Part shown: piece by piece, positions 26,824 to 33,085 of the stretch
Layout: each line of letters begins with the position of its first letter
Numbering within the stretch: position 1 is the stretch's first letter
Source: Bacteroidota bacterium
GTDB lineage: Bacteria > Bacteroidota > Bacteroidia > 2-12-FULL-35-15
NCBI GenBank assembly: GCA_029237775.1
Contig: JAQZBR010000007.1
Location: forward strand, 1-64,000
Length of the DNA: 64,000 bases
Direction of reading: 5' to 3'
Made by a program: the position numbers and the translations under genes
The notes under the pieces: generated by a model
What the model was told of the DNA's origin: nothing
Databases searched by the model: none
What the model saw: only the letters and a program-made list of their open reading frames with translations

Positions 26824-27552
26824 TCACTTTTTCAATCTCTGCAGGACACTACTTATATAACTATCTGTGGGCAACTGTGAATGCTGGATGCGTTTTGCGT
26901 ATCTGATGCTATCGATGATCTCCTTTTGCTTTTCTTCAAGCTCTTTATGTTGTAGCTCAATCTGCTCAAGAGAGCTCTTTAATTTATCCTCTGTTTCTTT
27001 CCTGTAGATCACTTCCTTTTTAAACTTCTGATTCCACGAGATCATTCCAAGTCCCAAAACAATAACGCCTGTTATTGACATTATATCAGCATAAGGCCAA
27101 TGCTGGATCTTAAACACCATTCCAAGCAACAGCAAAGCAATTCCCAAAAAGTCAAACATACTTAAAAAGAAAGCATCCCATTTGGAACGTGCGAAGATCT
27201 TCCATTTTTCATATTTATTTTTAAATACCAAGGTGCCATAAAAGAAACAAAGAATTAGTACTCCTAATATGATTTCAATTCTGCCACCTGGTAATTTAGC
27301 ATAAAAACTTATTGCACCTGCTCCTATCAAGAGAAGGGAAATTATCAAGGCTCGTTTCTCTATCTTCTTTCTGATGATCTCACTATTTGAAAGCAAGGAA
27401 ATGGCCGGGCCTGCAAATAAAAAAATAGTTCCAAAAATAAATGCCGGAACAGTGAGGCCCACAGGCAACGTCTTTGACCCAAACAGATCGTAAGTCGAAA
27501 GGGCAAATAACAAACCCGCGACCACTGTTATCAGAATTCCTTTTTGTTTCAT
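26824..27552 (-). CDS. Membrane protein ending in a phosphatase-type linker motif (catalytic domain absent)
   Basis: 242 residues with about six membrane helices. The pair around 140-165 (FKIQHWPYADIMSITGVIVLGLG) recalls the GldL-like motif of a helix followed by KIQHWP. A coiled coil (about 170-215, LEQIELQHKELEEKQKEII) leads to DSIRYAKRIQHSQLPT and the chain stops at YISSVLQRLKK. The same end occurs in the two TPR genes upstream, and the DSI-YAK part precedes the catalytic domain of the complete phosphatase next to it. Last gene of the operon, 26 bp after the phosphatase gene. Likely assembles with it. Confidence 0.8.
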   Translation of the reverse strand: MKQKGILITVVAGLLFALSTYDLFGSKTLPVGLTVPAFIFGTIFLFAGPAISLLSNSEIIRKKIEKRALIISLLLIGAGAISFYAKLPGGRIEIILGVLILCFFYGTLVFKNKYEKWKIFARSKWDAFFLSMFDFLGIALLLLGMVFKIQHWPYADIMSITGVIVLGLGMISWNQKFKKEVIYRKETEDKLKSSLEQIELQHKELEEKQKEIIDSIRYAKRIQHSQLPTDSYISSVLQRLKK

Positions 27553-27578
27553 GTTTTGATTTTGACAGCGACTTATGA

Positions 27579-29996
27579 TTAAATCCGGATCCCTATAACA
27601 ACTATATCATCCACCTGCTCCATATTGCCTTGCCAGCTAACAAGCACTTTATCCAGATATTCTTTTTGCTCTTTCAATGAAAGATGCGCAATATTTAGCA
27701 AGACACTTTGCAATTGCTTATACTTGAATTTTTTTCCCATCGGCCCGCCAAACTGATCAGCATAACCATCCGAAAAAGTATAGATCAAATCGTCTTTCTG
27801 CAATTTGATTTCCGATTGTGAAAACGGCTTAAGCTTGTCCCCGTAAATTCCGACCGGCTGCTTATCGCCTTTAAACTGGAAAAGCTCAAACACTTCTCTA
27901 TCATTTTTCCTGACAATATAAAAAGTATGGTTTGCCGCAGAATACATAAGGTTCATTTCCTTTTTGTCGATCACCATTAATGTAAGATCCATCCCATCCT
28001 GATGTTCGCCACTCACGCCTTTTTGTTTAAGAGAGGTGATCACTTTCTTTCTCAGCTTGCTCATTACAAGAGCAGGTTCGGTGAGTGCATACTCATTGAT
28101 AATTTCGTTAAGCAGTGATATTCCAAGCATGCTCATAAAGCCGCCCGGAACGCCATGGCCTGTACAATCCGCAGTAACAAAAATCACTTTACCTTCTTTA
28201 TCAGAGATCCAGTAAAAGTCACCGCTGATAATGTCTTTGGGTTTAAACAAGATAAAACTGTCATCAAAGTATTTCTCAAAATCAAGAGTGGTCGGAATCA
28301 GGGAAGTCTGAATATTCTTTGCATAAAAAATACTATCAGTGATCTCCCTGTTCTTTGTTTCAATGAGTTTATGCTGGTTTTCAATTTGTTCATTTTGCCT
28401 TTGCAGCTGCGACTTTTGTGCGGTAAGCTCAACGTTAAGCTTATTAAGAAACAAGTTTGATTCTTTTTTCTGATTGAATGCCCGATAAACAAGAAAAAGG
28501 ATTAAGCCTATCAGAGCCAGTCCCAGGAATAATCCGTTTCGGATATACTTCTGCTCCTGGATCTTTTTATCTGCCTCCACATCTTTTTTCTCCTGCACGA
28601 GCTTTTCCATTTGCTGCTGTTGGGAGAATTCAAAACTTAATTGTTTTTTCGTAAGCTCCTTCGTTGTTTCGATATTGTATACACTATCACGGATTGAAAT
28701 GTATTGTCTGTAATTTTCATATCCATTCTTATAGTCGTTAAGGGCCAGATAATTTTTACTCAAAAGCTGATAAGCTTCCATCTCTGTTGAAGTTAGGCCT
28801 GCACCTTTCGCTGTCGCCAGGGATTTTTCTGCTGCTTCAATACCTTTTTTGTAATCAGCTGTCTGATAATAAGCATTCGACATAGTGAGATAACACTCTG
28901 CTATACCTTCGGGGTCGTTCAGCAGTTTTCTTATAACAAGACTCGAATCAATATAGCTAAACACTTCATTTTTTTTATTTAGCTTCAGATAAGTTTTTGC
29001 GATATTATTTAGAACCAGAGCTTCCCGATTTCTGATCCCTATCCTTCTGCTGATAGCAAGCGCTTTAAAGTGATATTCAAGTGCCTCATCATATTTTCCC
29101 AGGCGCAGGTATAAAGCTCCAATATTGGTGAATCTGCCTGAGACGCATTGCTCGTCTTTGATTTCGTTGCACAACTCAAGGCTTTTTAATTCAGATTCAA
29201 GTGCCCGCGCCCACTCCTTCATCACATAGAATATTTTGTATTGGCTTAGGAATGAATTGGCGAGGCCCCGCTTATCATTTATCTTCTTCCTGATTACAAT
29301 ACTTTTCTGAATGTAATCCAGCGCTTTTGAATAATCTCCGAGGTACGAATAGTTCAAGCCCAGAAAAGAATACGAAGCGCCAAGTCCGATCGTATCTTTT
29401 ATCTCTGTTCGCAGATCAAGACTTTTCTGAAGATAGATCCCCGCCTCCGGATATTTTCCATTATCGTTAAGAAGAGAGCCGCGTAAATAATAATTATAGG
29501 CCAGTCCGGGCTTATCATTGGCTTCAATCGCTTTCTTTTCCGAAATATTTAATAAGTCGAATGCTTCAGAATACTTGTTAAGAGCACCAAAAGCTTTTGC
29601 TTTGTTATTCAATGCTTTAATTTCACCTTCTTCATTGTCAGCCGATTGAAAGATCTCGTAAGCTGTATCAAGGGACGCAATTGAGCTTTCATATTTACTT
29701 TGATTATAAAGTATGATCCCACGATAGCACAAGGCGGAAGCTTTTCCCTCAGAATGCTTAATCTTCTTTGATAAAGCAATCGCAGAACCGATGTAAGTAT
29801 TTGCACTATCGTATTTCCCATATAGAATATACAGATCAATAATTTTAAGCTCAGCAGAAACTTTGGAAGTATCCTCCGGAAGCTTCGATAAACTACGGAT
29901 AAGGGAATAAAGATTGTCGGCCTGTACTGTCTGAATAAACAATAGGCATACAATCGTAAATATCCATTTATTTATATTTGACAAGCGCTTCGACAC
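27579..29996 (-). CDS. TPR-containing membrane SpoIIE/PP2C-type phosphatase
   Basis: 805 residues; begins with GTG at 29996 (no suitable ATG nearby). Signal peptide-like N-terminus (WIFTIVCLLFIQTVQA). Eight or nine TPR units at about 35-430 in the periplasm, one membrane helix at about 487-507, a coiled coil (510-560), the linker DSIFYAKNIQTSLIP, then a full SpoIIE domain (575-805): SGDFYW, DCTGHGVPGGFMS, GEHQDGMDLTL, SDGYADQFGG, QVDDIVVIG. Expected to remove phosphate from Ser/Thr of a cytoplasmic partner when the TPR region receives a signal. Third gene of the operon 33085-26824, 69 bp after a TPR gene. Confidence 0.9.
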   Translation of the reverse strand: MSKRLSNINKWIFTIVCLLFIQTVQADNLYSLIRSLSKLPEDTSKVSAELKIIDLYILYGKYDSANTYIGSAIALSKKIKHSEGKASALCYRGIILYNQSKYESSIASLDTAYEIFQSADNEEGEIKALNNKAKAFGALNKYSEAFDLLNISEKKAIEANDKPGLAYNYYLRGSLLNDNGKYPEAGIYLQKSLDLRTEIKDTIGLGASYSFLGLNYSYLGDYSKALDYIQKSIVIRKKINDKRGLANSFLSQYKIFYVMKEWARALESELKSLELCNEIKDEQCVSGRFTNIGALYLRLGKYDEALEYHFKALAISRRIGIRNREALVLNNIAKTYLKLNKKNEVFSYIDSSLVIRKLLNDPEGIAECYLTMSNAYYQTADYKKGIEAAEKSLATAKGAGLTSTEMEAYQLLSKNYLALNDYKNGYENYRQYISIRDSVYNIETTKELTKKQLSFEFSQQQQMEKLVQEKKDVEADKKIQEQKYIRNGLFLGLALIGLILFLVYRAFNQKKESNLFLNKLNVELTAQKSQLQRQNEQIENQHKLIETKNREITDSIFYAKNIQTSLIPTTLDFEKYFDDSFILFKPKDIISGDFYWISDKEGKVIFVTADCTGHGVPGGFMSMLGISLLNEIINEYALTEPALVMSKLRKKVITSLKQKGVSGEHQDGMDLTLMVIDKKEMNLMYSAANHTFYIVRKNDREVFELFQFKGDKQPVGIYGDKLKPFSQSEIKLQKDDLIYTFSDGYADQFGGPMGKKFKYKQLQSVLLNIAHLSLKEQKEYLDKVLVSWQGNMEQVDDIVVIGIRI

Positions 29997-30065
29997 GAGT
30001 ATAAAAATCCGTATTTAATCTGTATAAAAAAAGAAAATTGAATGTTTAATTGCCTTTAGGCAGCC

Positions 30066-31583
30066 TTAGTTTCCTCTTTTTAAACGCTGGAAGGAATTAT
30101 GGATATACGACTCGGTCGGCAATTGCGACAACTGAATTCTTTTGGCATAAGTAATACTGTCGATAATCTCCTTCTGATGTTCCTCCACTTTCATTTTTTG
30201 ATACTCCATCTCATCTTTCTGAAGAGCTACAAGATTCCGCTGCTCTTCAATGATATTTTTCTGAGCCCGTGTGATCCTTAATGTCCGCAGGATGTAAAAA
30301 GTGAACATAAGTACCAGAAAAAGCCCGCCTGCAACAGACCCAATGATAACCTTCTGCTTCCTGTCTTTCTCCTCAGCAAGCGCCTGCATTTTCTCAAGCT
30401 CTTTTTTATGCTCTGCTTCTGCGATAGCCTCTTGCTTTTCAAAATCAAAAGTCATCTGACTCTGAATGGTTTTTTTTCGCGATTCTTCGTTGTCCAGACT
30501 ATCTCTGTAAAGAATGTGCATTTTATAATTTTCAAAAGCACCCTTGAAATCAGAATGTGAGCTATCGATATGCGCTAGTGCATTATATATCTGGCTCAAA
30601 CAATCCTTAGAGCCTATTTTCTCAGCGACTTGTTTAGAGATTGACAGGTGCTTAGAAGCTTCGCTATATTTTTTCTGCTTTGTAAAGAAAGTACCCACAT
30701 GAAGATTAGAGATGGCAATACCTAAGCTGTCTTCGATCTCCTCCTGAATTTTTAAGGAAGCCATGTAATACTCGTACACTTCAGAAAAATTGCCTTGCAC
30801 TTCATGCACCAATCCAATAGCATCATAATTTTTTGCCAGCCAGTTTAAATTCTGAAGCTGTTTATTGATTTTCATTGCCTCAGAATATTTCCTGAGTGCG
30901 GCCGCATAATCATTCTGTGCGAAATATATGTTCCCGATATTATGATAAGAGCTGGCCAGCGTTTCCGTTTCGTTTAATGCCTTCCGGATCTCCAACGCTG
31001 CCAGTTGGTTTTTTAACGCTTCAGGAAACTTTCCCATATCGTAATACAGATTCCCGAGATTATTATAAGATGAAGCTATACCTTTTCTGTTCCTGAGATT
31101 ATGAGGCTCTTTAACTGCGATAGCATTTCTGATCTTCAGCGATTCCAGAAAGTTTTTTAAGGCTTCGGGATAATTTCCCTGTGCATTAAATACCAATCCA
31201 ATATTGTTTAATGCTATTGCAATGCCATGCGAGTCATTCCTTTTTCTATTGATATTGAGTGCTTGAAAATAACTGTTAAGCGCCTCCTGAAAATTTCCTC
31301 TGTCTTCAGCATGATAACCGAACAAGACATAAGTGTCACCAATAAGCTTGTCATCATTGATCTTTTGCGAAAGTTCCAAAGCCCGGTTCAAATATTCTTT
31401 CGCCTTTTCATCATCGGAAAACTCATATTCCAGAAAAAGCTCATGGTAGCTTAATATTTTAAGTGTATCATCTTTTGCTTCTTTCACAAAAGATAAAAGA
31501 GAGTCAACCCTGTTCGATTGTGAATATACCATCTGCGAAAGAACAGAAAAGGTGATCAAAAAAATTACAAAGACCTTTTTCAT
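30066..31583 (-). CDS. TPR membrane protein with coiled coil and short conserved tail, no catalytic domain
   Basis: 505 residues. Signal peptide (VFVIFLITFSVLSQMVYS), about eight TPR units (45-330), a segment YRDSLDNEESRKKTIQSQM, coiled coil, one membrane helix (about 402-422), a second coiled coil, and the ending DSITYAKRIQLSQLPTESYI followed by a short QRLK tail. The DSI-YAKRIQ part equals the linker that precedes SpoIIE domains, but the chain stops before a catalytic domain would begin. Close paralogue of the upstream gene (ATGA overlap, 31580-31583), probably by tandem duplication. Likely a sensor subunit of the downstream phosphatase. Confidence 0.85.
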   Translation of the reverse strand: MKKVFVIFLITFSVLSQMVYSQSNRVDSLLSFVKEAKDDTLKILSYHELFLEYEFSDDEKAKEYLNRALELSQKINDDKLIGDTYVLFGYHAEDRGNFQEALNSYFQALNINRKRNDSHGIAIALNNIGLVFNAQGNYPEALKNFLESLKIRNAIAVKEPHNLRNRKGIASSYNNLGNLYYDMGKFPEALKNQLAALEIRKALNETETLASSYHNIGNIYFAQNDYAAALRKYSEAMKINKQLQNLNWLAKNYDAIGLVHEVQGNFSEVYEYYMASLKIQEEIEDSLGIAISNLHVGTFFTKQKKYSEASKHLSISKQVAEKIGSKDCLSQIYNALAHIDSSHSDFKGAFENYKMHILYRDSLDNEESRKKTIQSQMTFDFEKQEAIAEAEHKKELEKMQALAEEKDRKQKVIIGSVAGGLFLVLMFTFYILRTLRITRAQKNIIEEQRNLVALQKDEMEYQKMKVEEHQKEIIDSITYAKRIQLSQLPTESYIHNSFQRLKRGN

Positions 31584-33085
31584 ATCTCTTTGCTTTTTCG
31601 ATTTTTCAATCGCATTAAATTCCTGCTTATATATTGTTCGGTCGGAAACTGCGAGAGCTGTATTCTTCGTGCATAAGTAATACTGTCAATAACCGCCTGC
31701 CGATGCTCCTCAACCAGATGCTTCTGCATTTCCACAACATGTTTCTGAGCCTCCACAAGATCTTTTTGCTCCTGGATCAGCGATTTCTGTCTGCGGGTTA
31801 TTCTCAAGGAACGCAAAACATAAGCGACAAATAGAAGCACTATGAACAAGGAGCAGGCAGCAAAAGTTATTATTACGGACTGCTTCCGGCTTTTAACATC
31901 AGCCAATGCGTTTTGCTTCTCCAGCTCTTTCTTGTATGCTGCTGCGGCTACCGCTTCCTTCTTTCCAAAATCATAAGCCATCTGGCTCTGAATTGTTTTT
32001 CTTCTGGTTTCTTCATTATCAAGGCTGTCACGATAAAGCACATACATCCGCATGTTCTTATAACTTGATTTAAAATCACCTTTGGCGCTGTCGAGAGTCG
32101 TAAGTGCTTTATAGATCTCACGCAGATATTCTTTATTTGCAGACTCCTCCATCATCTTTTTAGCTGAAAGAAAATATTTCTCTGCTTCATGAAAGTTCTT
32201 TTGTTTCATAAACATATCACCGAGATTTATGTAGCTTCCCGAAATCCCGACCCTGTCACCGATTTCCTGACGTACTTTTAAAGACTTAAGAAGATATTCC
32301 TGAGACTTCTTGTATTCTTTCAGATCGGAATATACGTTACCGATATTATTGTACGAGGAAGCCACTCCCCGTACGTTTCCTATAGATTGATCTATTTTAA
32401 GGGATGAAAAGTAATTGTTCAGAGCTTTCTGGTAGTTTCCATCAGCACGGTAAATGATGCCGAGGTTATTGTATGAGAGCGCAAGACCGCTCTTGTTATC
32501 CTGCTCCTGATAAATCTTTAAAGATTTGTTATAATGTTCAAGTGCTTTCTTGTAGTCATCCTGACTTGAATATATTAGTCCGATATTGTTGTAAACATCA
32601 GCACTGCCGTTCTTATCGTTTAACGATTCCTTGATCTTCAACGCCAGAAAATAATTCTTTAAGGCTTCCGGATAATTTCCAAGATCAAAATGAATGATAC
32701 CGATATAATTGTTTGAATTGGCCATTCCCTGCTGATCCTTCATCAGACGATAGATCTCCAGAGCATTGGTATAATTTTCAAGAGCTTTTAAATAATCGCC
32801 TTTATCTTCAGAATAGTACCCGTAAAAAGTGATGGTTGCCGCGATGCCTTTTTGATAATTGATCTTTTTCGCAAGAGTGAGAGCCTGATCGAGATAGGCT
32901 TTCGCTTTCTTCCCATCAACGAATTCGAATTCCAGGAAAAGCTTATTTAATGAGTCTACTTTTGCTGAGTCATTAAGAGATTCAATAGAAACTTGCTTTA
33001 TTGTAGTTGAAGAAGAATTTTGAGAAAAGACATTCAGGGATATTAGAATGGATCCTAATATTAATACATGATATTTTGATCGCAT
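31580..33085 (-). CDS. TPR membrane protein with coiled coil and short conserved tail, no catalytic domain
   Basis: 501 residues from ATG 33085, which starts a signal peptide (YHVLILGSILISLNVFS); a TTG at 33112 is less likely. About eight TPR units with the alternating pattern YNNIGxxY, YRDSLDNEETRRKTIQSQM, membrane helix at about 395-415, a Gln/Glu/Val-rich coiled coil (QKDLVEAQKHVVEMQKHLVE), and the end DSITYARRIQLSQFPTEQYI plus MRLKNRK. Same plan as the next gene, which it overlaps by four bases. First gene of a four-gene operon. Ligand and output are not known. Confidence 0.85.
   Translation of the reverse strand: MRSKYHVLILGSILISLNVFSQNSSSTTIKQVSIESLNDSAKVDSLNKLFLEFEFVDGKKAKAYLDQALTLAKKINYQKGIAATITFYGYYSEDKGDYLKALENYTNALEIYRLMKDQQGMANSNNYIGIIHFDLGNYPEALKNYFLALKIKESLNDKNGSADVYNNIGLIYSSQDDYKKALEHYNKSLKIYQEQDNKSGLALSYNNLGIIYRADGNYQKALNNYFSSLKIDQSIGNVRGVASSYNNIGNVYSDLKEYKKSQEYLLKSLKVRQEIGDRVGISGSYINLGDMFMKQKNFHEAEKYFLSAKKMMEESANKEYLREIYKALTTLDSAKGDFKSSYKNMRMYVLYRDSLDNEETRRKTIQSQMAYDFGKKEAVAAAAYKKELEKQNALADVKSRKQSVIITFAACSLFIVLLFVAYVLRSLRITRRQKSLIQEQKDLVEAQKHVVEMQKHLVEEHRQAVIDSITYARRIQLSQFPTEQYISRNLMRLKNRKSKEI

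Follow-up and report, generated by a model that had tools for sequence, protein, structure and literature searches.

Enzyme-less sensors and a stand-alone catalytic subunit point to a probable split SpoIIE-type sensor phosphatase in Bacteroidota

Phosphatases of the SpoIIE/RsbU type are regarded as single-chain sensor enzymes in which a linker transmits the signal. In the RsbU/RsbP-type phosphatases of the general stress response (GSR), sensor and enzyme form one chain, and a partner acting in trans (RsbT or RsbQ) binds the linker (PMC12143880). The linker dimer passes the signal to a phosphatase dimer formed by the helices alpha0, alpha1 and alpha2 (PMC12143880), and Baral et al. described the active RsbU-type dimers as joined via these three helices beneath the crossing linker helices (PMC12143880). 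Here we describe a different arrangement, starting from a window of 64,000 nucleotides at the beginning of contig JAQZBR010000007.1 of a Bacteroidota bacterium (assembly GCA_029237775.1). Four closely spaced minus-strand genes in this window, spanning positions 33085-26824, encode proteins of 501, 505, 805 and 242 amino acids (aa). The 805-aa protein is a complete phosphatase, whereas the other three are sensors without an enzyme; many such sensors probably share one detachable phosphatase. The features of the gene row, made of tetratricopeptide repeats (TPR), transmembrane (TM) segments, coiled coils and alpha0 tails, are the following:

31580-33085, minus strand: enzyme-less sensor 1, 501 aa from ATG (510 aa from an upstream TTG, the frame being open to 33112), with TPR repeats, one TM segment, a coiled coil and the alpha0 tail
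31583-31687, minus strand: end of the linker helix and alpha0 tail of sensor 1 (DSITYARRIQ...RLKNRKSKEI)
30066-31583, minus strand: enzyme-less sensor 2, 505 aa, with TPR at residues 25-363, a continuous helix at 366-487, a TM segment near 422, a break at LPT and a terminal helix at 491-502
30069-30161, minus strand: end of the linker helix and alpha0 tail of sensor 2 (DSITYAKRIQ...QRLKRGN)
27579-29996, minus strand: complete TPR-TM-coiled coil-SpoIIE phosphatase of the same gene row, 805 aa, whose alpha0 reads PTTLDFEKYF without the EKYI motif
26824-27552, minus strand: enzyme-less sensor 3, 242 aa, with about five TM segments, a GldL_N-like KIQHWP motif (below cut-off), a coiled coil and the alpha0 tail
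26827-26913, minus strand: end of the linker helix and alpha0 tail of sensor 3 (DSIRYAKRIQ...QRLKK)

The chains of the three enzyme-less sensors close with DSIRYAKRIQHSQLPTDSYISSVLQRLKK, DSITYAKRIQLSQLPTESYIHNSFQRLKRGN and DSITYARRIQLSQFPTEQYISRNLMRLKNRKSKEI, each followed directly by the stop codon, and the pattern DSIxYAK/RRIQ-S-Q-L/F-PTxxYI...RLK is common to them. A match to PF07228 was obtained for the 805-aa protein (69.8 bits); the Pfam scan gave none for the 242-, 505- and 501-aa proteins, which end before strand beta1 of the catalytic domain. Alignments and AlphaFold2 models located a coiled-coil linker and alpha0 in the window sensors. A preliminary description of the window had noticed that the three chains stop at a shared tail after DSIxYAKRIQ and had held that this was not random truncation. 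The gene ends confirmed the shared stop, about 15 residues beyond the linker helix, and three observations speak for the second statement. Seventeen residues are identical in all three tails and, as read from the DNA sequence, their codons differ at 13 of the 17; the genome encodes nine such proteins; and among about 150 loci the tail was present in 176 of the 177 open frames ending within 60 aa of the helix, the exception being a spurious 88-aa frame. The common end within those loci is thus not an effect of the tail profile. The gene boundaries are equally tight: the stop of the 501-aa gene overlaps the start of the 505-aa gene by 4 bp and the stop of the 242-aa gene abuts a convergent GDPD gene, so that no phosphatase frame can be restored by correcting errors; a frame joined in this way is what the preliminary description had named as speaking against it. 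Neither a recent gene conversion or copying of the tails nor a sequencing error or frame shift explains the ends, since the codons differ, the neighbouring genes overlap or abut the stops, and the nine loci in the genome repeat the pattern.

The tail was identified by comparison with complete phosphatases, one of which, in the same genome, reads for example DSITYAKRLQEAILPTESYIAKVLKESFVLYKPKDIVAGDFYW. In the alignment, the sensor tails track this line as far as ...PTESYIxKxL and then terminate. The residues after the Pro, which the preliminary description had taken as extra, align with PTESYIAKVL, followed by KESFVLYKPKD, at the mouth of the catalytic domain. They are not a foreign element: the sensor tail is alpha0, the helix that opens the phosphatase domain, and the chain breaks off ahead of beta1. 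AlphaFold2 modelled the complete linker and catalytic domain (73-sequence alignment, predicted local distance difference test score (pLDDT) of 95.5) with a linker helix at 2-57, a break at LPT, alpha0 at 62-68 and beta1 at 72-77. The model of the 505-aa protein (pLDDT 90.7 overall, about 63-73 in the tail) showed TPR repeats, an unbroken helix at 366-487 running through the membrane segment, the LPT break and a last helix at 491-502. Sensors therefore keep the linker and alpha0 and lose everything from beta1 onward. Strand beta1 starts approximately 13 residues past the Pro in complete proteins and the sensors end a median of 15 residues past it; judging from the models, the chain is divided where alpha0 joins beta1. 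Aligned to the NCBIfam SiaA model, sensor 3 takes up positions 382-431 and the stand-alone enzyme described below positions 437-656, so that the two halves abut.

The alpha0 segment is constrained in the sensors. Conservation at its columns E, K, Y, I and K/R amounts to 2.8-3.9 bits in sensors versus 1.1-2.4 bits in 157 complete proteins (for E-K-Y-I, 2.8, 2.8, 3.9 and 3.7 versus 1.4, 1.1, 1.3 and 2.4 bits). Such stronger conservation would be expected of a docking site for one partner. Complete phosphatases with a more stand-alone-like catalytic domain also carry a more sensor-like alpha0 (rho 0.26, p 0.001, uncorrected for kinship), a weak hint that alpha0 and the enzyme surface may change jointly.

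The missing half is encoded in the same genome, outside the window, as a 236-aa stand-alone SpoIIE protein (G000:C4:61213-61920); the preliminary description could not take it into account because the gene sits on another contig. Upstream of it lie a cytosolic TPR sensor, which carries the same tail, and a complete phosphatase. Stand-alone proteins of this family are about 232-240 aa long, without sensor or linker, and start with METxxETKNFFILYKPKDIVSGDFY, that is, at beta1. In 47 of the 48 proteins aligned the N-terminus is 10-19 residues ahead of KPKD, the remaining frame extending further upstream from a TTG; the stand-alone enzyme lacks the linker and alpha0. All 48 carry the pattern of metal-binding catalytic Asp residues of PPM enzymes, Asp columns are invariant in an alignment of the family, and the subunit matches PF07228 at 76.9 bits against a curated cut-off of 25. 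Judged by its sequence, the stand-alone subunit is a SpoIIE/PPM phosphatase with intact catalytic motifs. A first tree of the enzyme gave two clades (44 and 7), but a single clade is compatible with the approximately unbiased (AU) test (p 0.28), so that separate origins are unsupported. The contigs of the GTDB collection on which the family was present are all assigned to Bacteroidota or its subgroups, except for one labelled Candidatus Saccharibacteria (L202). The stand-alone gene on that contig is of the Bacteroidota type and its genome has sensors, which suggests a mislabelled or mixed assembly. A 681-aa aldehyde dehydrogenase/dehydratase-like gene directly precedes the stand-alone gene in two loci (L174, L175); in the genome of the window, a sensor and a complete phosphatase are found between this neighbour and the stand-alone gene (G000:C4:56092-61923, positions 2093-7924 of L034).

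The distribution of the two halves was compared across 395 genomes of the same class, mostly drafts. The stand-alone profile found a single gene in each of 24 genomes (E <= 1e-117, frames of 236-277 aa), the next matches being long complete proteins. The sensor search flagged 33 of the 395 genomes, eight of which hold complete phosphatases only; true sensors were present in the same 24 genomes and in one more, G330. The resulting table (both 24, sensor only 1, enzyme only 0, neither 370) corresponds to a p value of 1.5e-37, and the genus of the window alone (both 4, sensor only 0, enzyme only 0, neither 11) to 7e-4. The result was the same with a second profile, which covered the tail alone and was built from 60 diverse sensors; the best matches inspected in 15 further genomes were all complete proteins. 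Apparent sensors in G111, G231, G018, G099, G159, G207, G270, G316, G371 and others were complete phosphatases on inspection. Presence and absence are mixed inside at least six families, and the two halves agree in all of these cases but G330, so the link is not explained by shared ancestry alone. Furthermore, 18 GTDB loci have a stand-alone gene and no sensor within 5 kb, and all 18 belong to genomes that carry sensors elsewhere (some of them genomes also in the class sample). Outside the class sample, G001 and G006 possess both sensors and the stand-alone gene.

The two halves are also frequently adjacent. Among 51 stand-alone genes, 25 had a sensor in the fetched locus, versus one of 29 complete-phosphatase loci in the same search. 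Within 300 bp, sensors were found beside 22 of 51 stand-alone genes and none of the 29 complete ones (p 6e-6); as the 51 include two fragments of complete proteins, 22 of 49 is the fairer count.

Enzyme-less sensors are numerous and varied. The genome of the window encodes nine, three in the window and six elsewhere, along with 46 SpoIIE domains in 4.08 Mb. In relatives, 2 to about 30 sensors per genome were observed, often in tandem arrays, and 205 distinct sensor tails share the common end. A single type of tail ends periplasmic TPR, cytosolic TPR, Reg_prop/Y_Y_Y and five-TM sensors. Approximately nine or more sensor genes follow one another in G003:C58:92279-106253 (L073, L074) and in G403:C16:14696-29879; some arrays hit the contig end. 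At positions 10395-13349 of L073, a Reg_prop/Y_Y_Y beta-propeller protein ends in the phosphatase tail; beta-propeller sensors of this kind are usual in hybrid histidine kinases. Five-TM sensors with the GldL-like KIQHWP motif and the same tail were seen in the window (26824-27552) and in L098 (9278-10111). The 242-aa window protein scored below the GldL/PorL cut-offs (GldL_N 23.6 bits versus 24; TIGR03513 19.3 versus 68.3). A defence system was considered and rejected: PADLOC gave generic TPR models and a weak RTasSLATT match of the 242-aa protein, and no match at all for the stand-alone enzyme. Elsewhere in the genome, a SpoIIE gene at G000:C1:191520-192110 (L037) has an in-frame TGA within its profile match and is possibly a pseudogene or a read error.

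We propose a split SpoIIE/PPM-type sensor phosphatase, and it is likely that sensors ending in alpha0 dock on a separate PPM catalytic subunit and share it. On balance it also seems probable that the chain was split between alpha0 and beta1 and that up to about 30 sensors per genome compete for one catalytic subunit via their common terminal docking helix; a ratio of 2 to about 30 sensors per subunit, docked by this helix, is the best reading of the data. The common boundary of the split, the intact catalytic motifs, the near-perfect co-occurrence, the frequent adjacency, the constrained alpha0 and the variety of exchangeable sensors are observed; binding, activation and the substrate are the parts that we infer. 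In this model, a sensor subunit would consist of a TPR or membrane sensor, usually with one TM segment, a dimeric coiled-coil linker and the terminal alpha0 (LPTEKYIxKxLxRLK), and the enzyme would be a separate PPM subunit, one gene per genome, starting at beta1 with the catalytic Asp set. On this enzyme, the sensor alpha0 would take the position held in cis by alpha0 in complete phosphatases. Each sensor dimer would bring two catalytic subunits together as the alpha0/alpha1/alpha2 dimer by which such enzymes are switched on; a signal through the dimeric coiled coil would switch the paired enzymes, and one enzyme would be shared and tuned by many sensors. Only the analogy with RsbU favours activation over inhibition. 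The targets, by the same kind of analogy, are probably STAS proteins (phospho-STAS-type), of which the genome encodes about five, with 115-aa STAS genes near G000:C8:128576 and C11:257470. With 46 SpoIIE phosphatase domains for only about five STAS proteins, it has many phosphatases and few targets of the known type.

Several points weigh against this proposal. Half of the stand-alone genes are not beside sensors, and the one in the genome of the window is near one sensor but not near the window genes. The draft of G003 is 93% complete and contains about 30 sensors, and the stand-alone gene was missing from it; that several sensor arrays of this genome break off at contig ends may or may not account for this. 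In G330, no stand-alone gene was found and the single sensor is embedded among complete phosphatases. Most of the genomes compared are drafts, those with weak sensor-profile matches (1e-9 to 1e-10) and no stand-alone gene were inspected as a sample, and the AlphaFold2 predictions are of single chains only. Finally, co-inheritance could mark a shared pathway instead of direct contact. One alternative is that the stand-alone enzyme is an independent feedback phosphatase, arranged as in RsbX, of a pathway to which the sensors also belong, the two acting on a common target without contact, or with the sensors as dominant negatives. PPM enzymes without a regulatory domain do exist (RsbX, 3w40, is among the fold matches) and in many genomes the stand-alone gene is not adjacent to sensors. 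We nevertheless consider this improbable, as it leaves unexplained why one chain ends and the other starts at the same joint, why alpha0 is present in every sensor and why it is more conserved there than in complete enzymes; moreover, the stand-alone profile finds by sequence only SiaA among solved structures, and not RsbX.

A little more weight, although still short of a likely explanation, can be given to heterodimers in which sensors pair via the linker coiled coil with an adjacent complete phosphatase, here the 805-aa protein, tuning or blocking it. This is close to the sensor-effector complex of the preliminary description, of which the enzyme-free sensor subunits and the tail as a defined element were retained, with docking as its best reading, whereas the neighbouring complete phosphatase was not retained as main partner. 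The window operon itself combines sensors with a complete phosphatase, and the only sensor of G330 overlaps complete SpoIIE genes on both sides. In the proposed test of whether sensor genes neighbour SpoIIE genes, 18 of 59 sensor clusters had a complete SpoIIE gene no more than 3 kb away, where 5.5 are expected by uniform chance. However, complete SpoIIE genes clump just as much among themselves (17 of 46 within 5 kb in the genome of the window), so the excess, although real, may reflect paralogues growing side by side. About 70% of the sensor clusters have no complete SpoIIE gene nearby, such genes are abundant in sensor-free genomes while the stand-alone gene tracks sensors almost perfectly, and the alpha0 of the 805-aa protein is unlike that of the sensors. 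It is very unlikely that the docking partner of the terminal helix is no phosphatase at all, for instance a kinase or cytoskeletal protein, and that the stand-alone enzyme is linked for another reason: the end of the tail is basic (RLK) and the 242-aa sensor resembles a GldL membrane motif, but the tail shares homology with the phosphatase mouth and the co-occurring gene encodes the missing half. Hardly credible at all is the notion of decaying or truncated duplicates of complete phosphatases without a function of their own. Tandem arrays of paralogues and in-frame stops in a few relatives would fit it. Against it stand the common end of the 205 tails, the conservation of residues despite synonymous drift, the intact copies, which number up to about 30 in a genome, the presence of one tail on several architectures and the co-occurrence with a detached enzyme.

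The components, a PPM/SpoIIE phosphatase and sensor modules of the SpoIIE type, are thus of a known kind. A split or shared SpoIIE phosphatase, with the alpha0/beta1 cut and one enzyme for many sensors, was not found in the literature searched, the scope of which left out subscription papers and preprints, so that this absence is not proof. With the RsbU/RsbP-type GSR phosphatases the system has in common the coiled-coil linker, alpha0, the PPM domain and exchangeable sensor domains (PMC12143880); it differs in having its chain cut between alpha0 and beta1, and the part of the trans partner would fall to the enzyme itself, shared by many sensors. SiaA of Pseudomonas aeruginosa (6k4e, NF038263) has the nearest solved catalytic domain by sequence and fold, and its linker region matches the sensor tail, but it is a single chain of linker and PP2C domain, and no match came near the NF038263 cut-off of 700 bits. 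RsbX is likewise a stand-alone PPM phosphatase without a regulatory domain; among solved structures, the stand-alone profile did not match it, 6k4e (SiaA) being the only match at E<=1e-3. We know of no family of sensors ending at the first strand of RsbX. The TPR regions of sensors 1 and 2 match, below cut-off, TPR histidine kinases such as FimS (NF053520); unlike FimS, their chains end at alpha0, and Pfam matched no histidine kinase domain in them. If the model is true, the natural alpha0/beta1 split would isolate the element that couples linker and enzyme, making this coupling testable with two soluble pieces, and would provide a function for hundreds of Bacteroidota genes whose only description in the libraries used is that of TPR proteins. 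It would also represent a many-to-one phosphatase network with a layout comparable to that of chemoreceptors, many of which share one CheA kinase. The likeness is an analogy only: in both cases many sensors with one conserved coiled-coil element would feed one enzyme, without homology between the two systems, and with a phosphatase here in place of the kinase.

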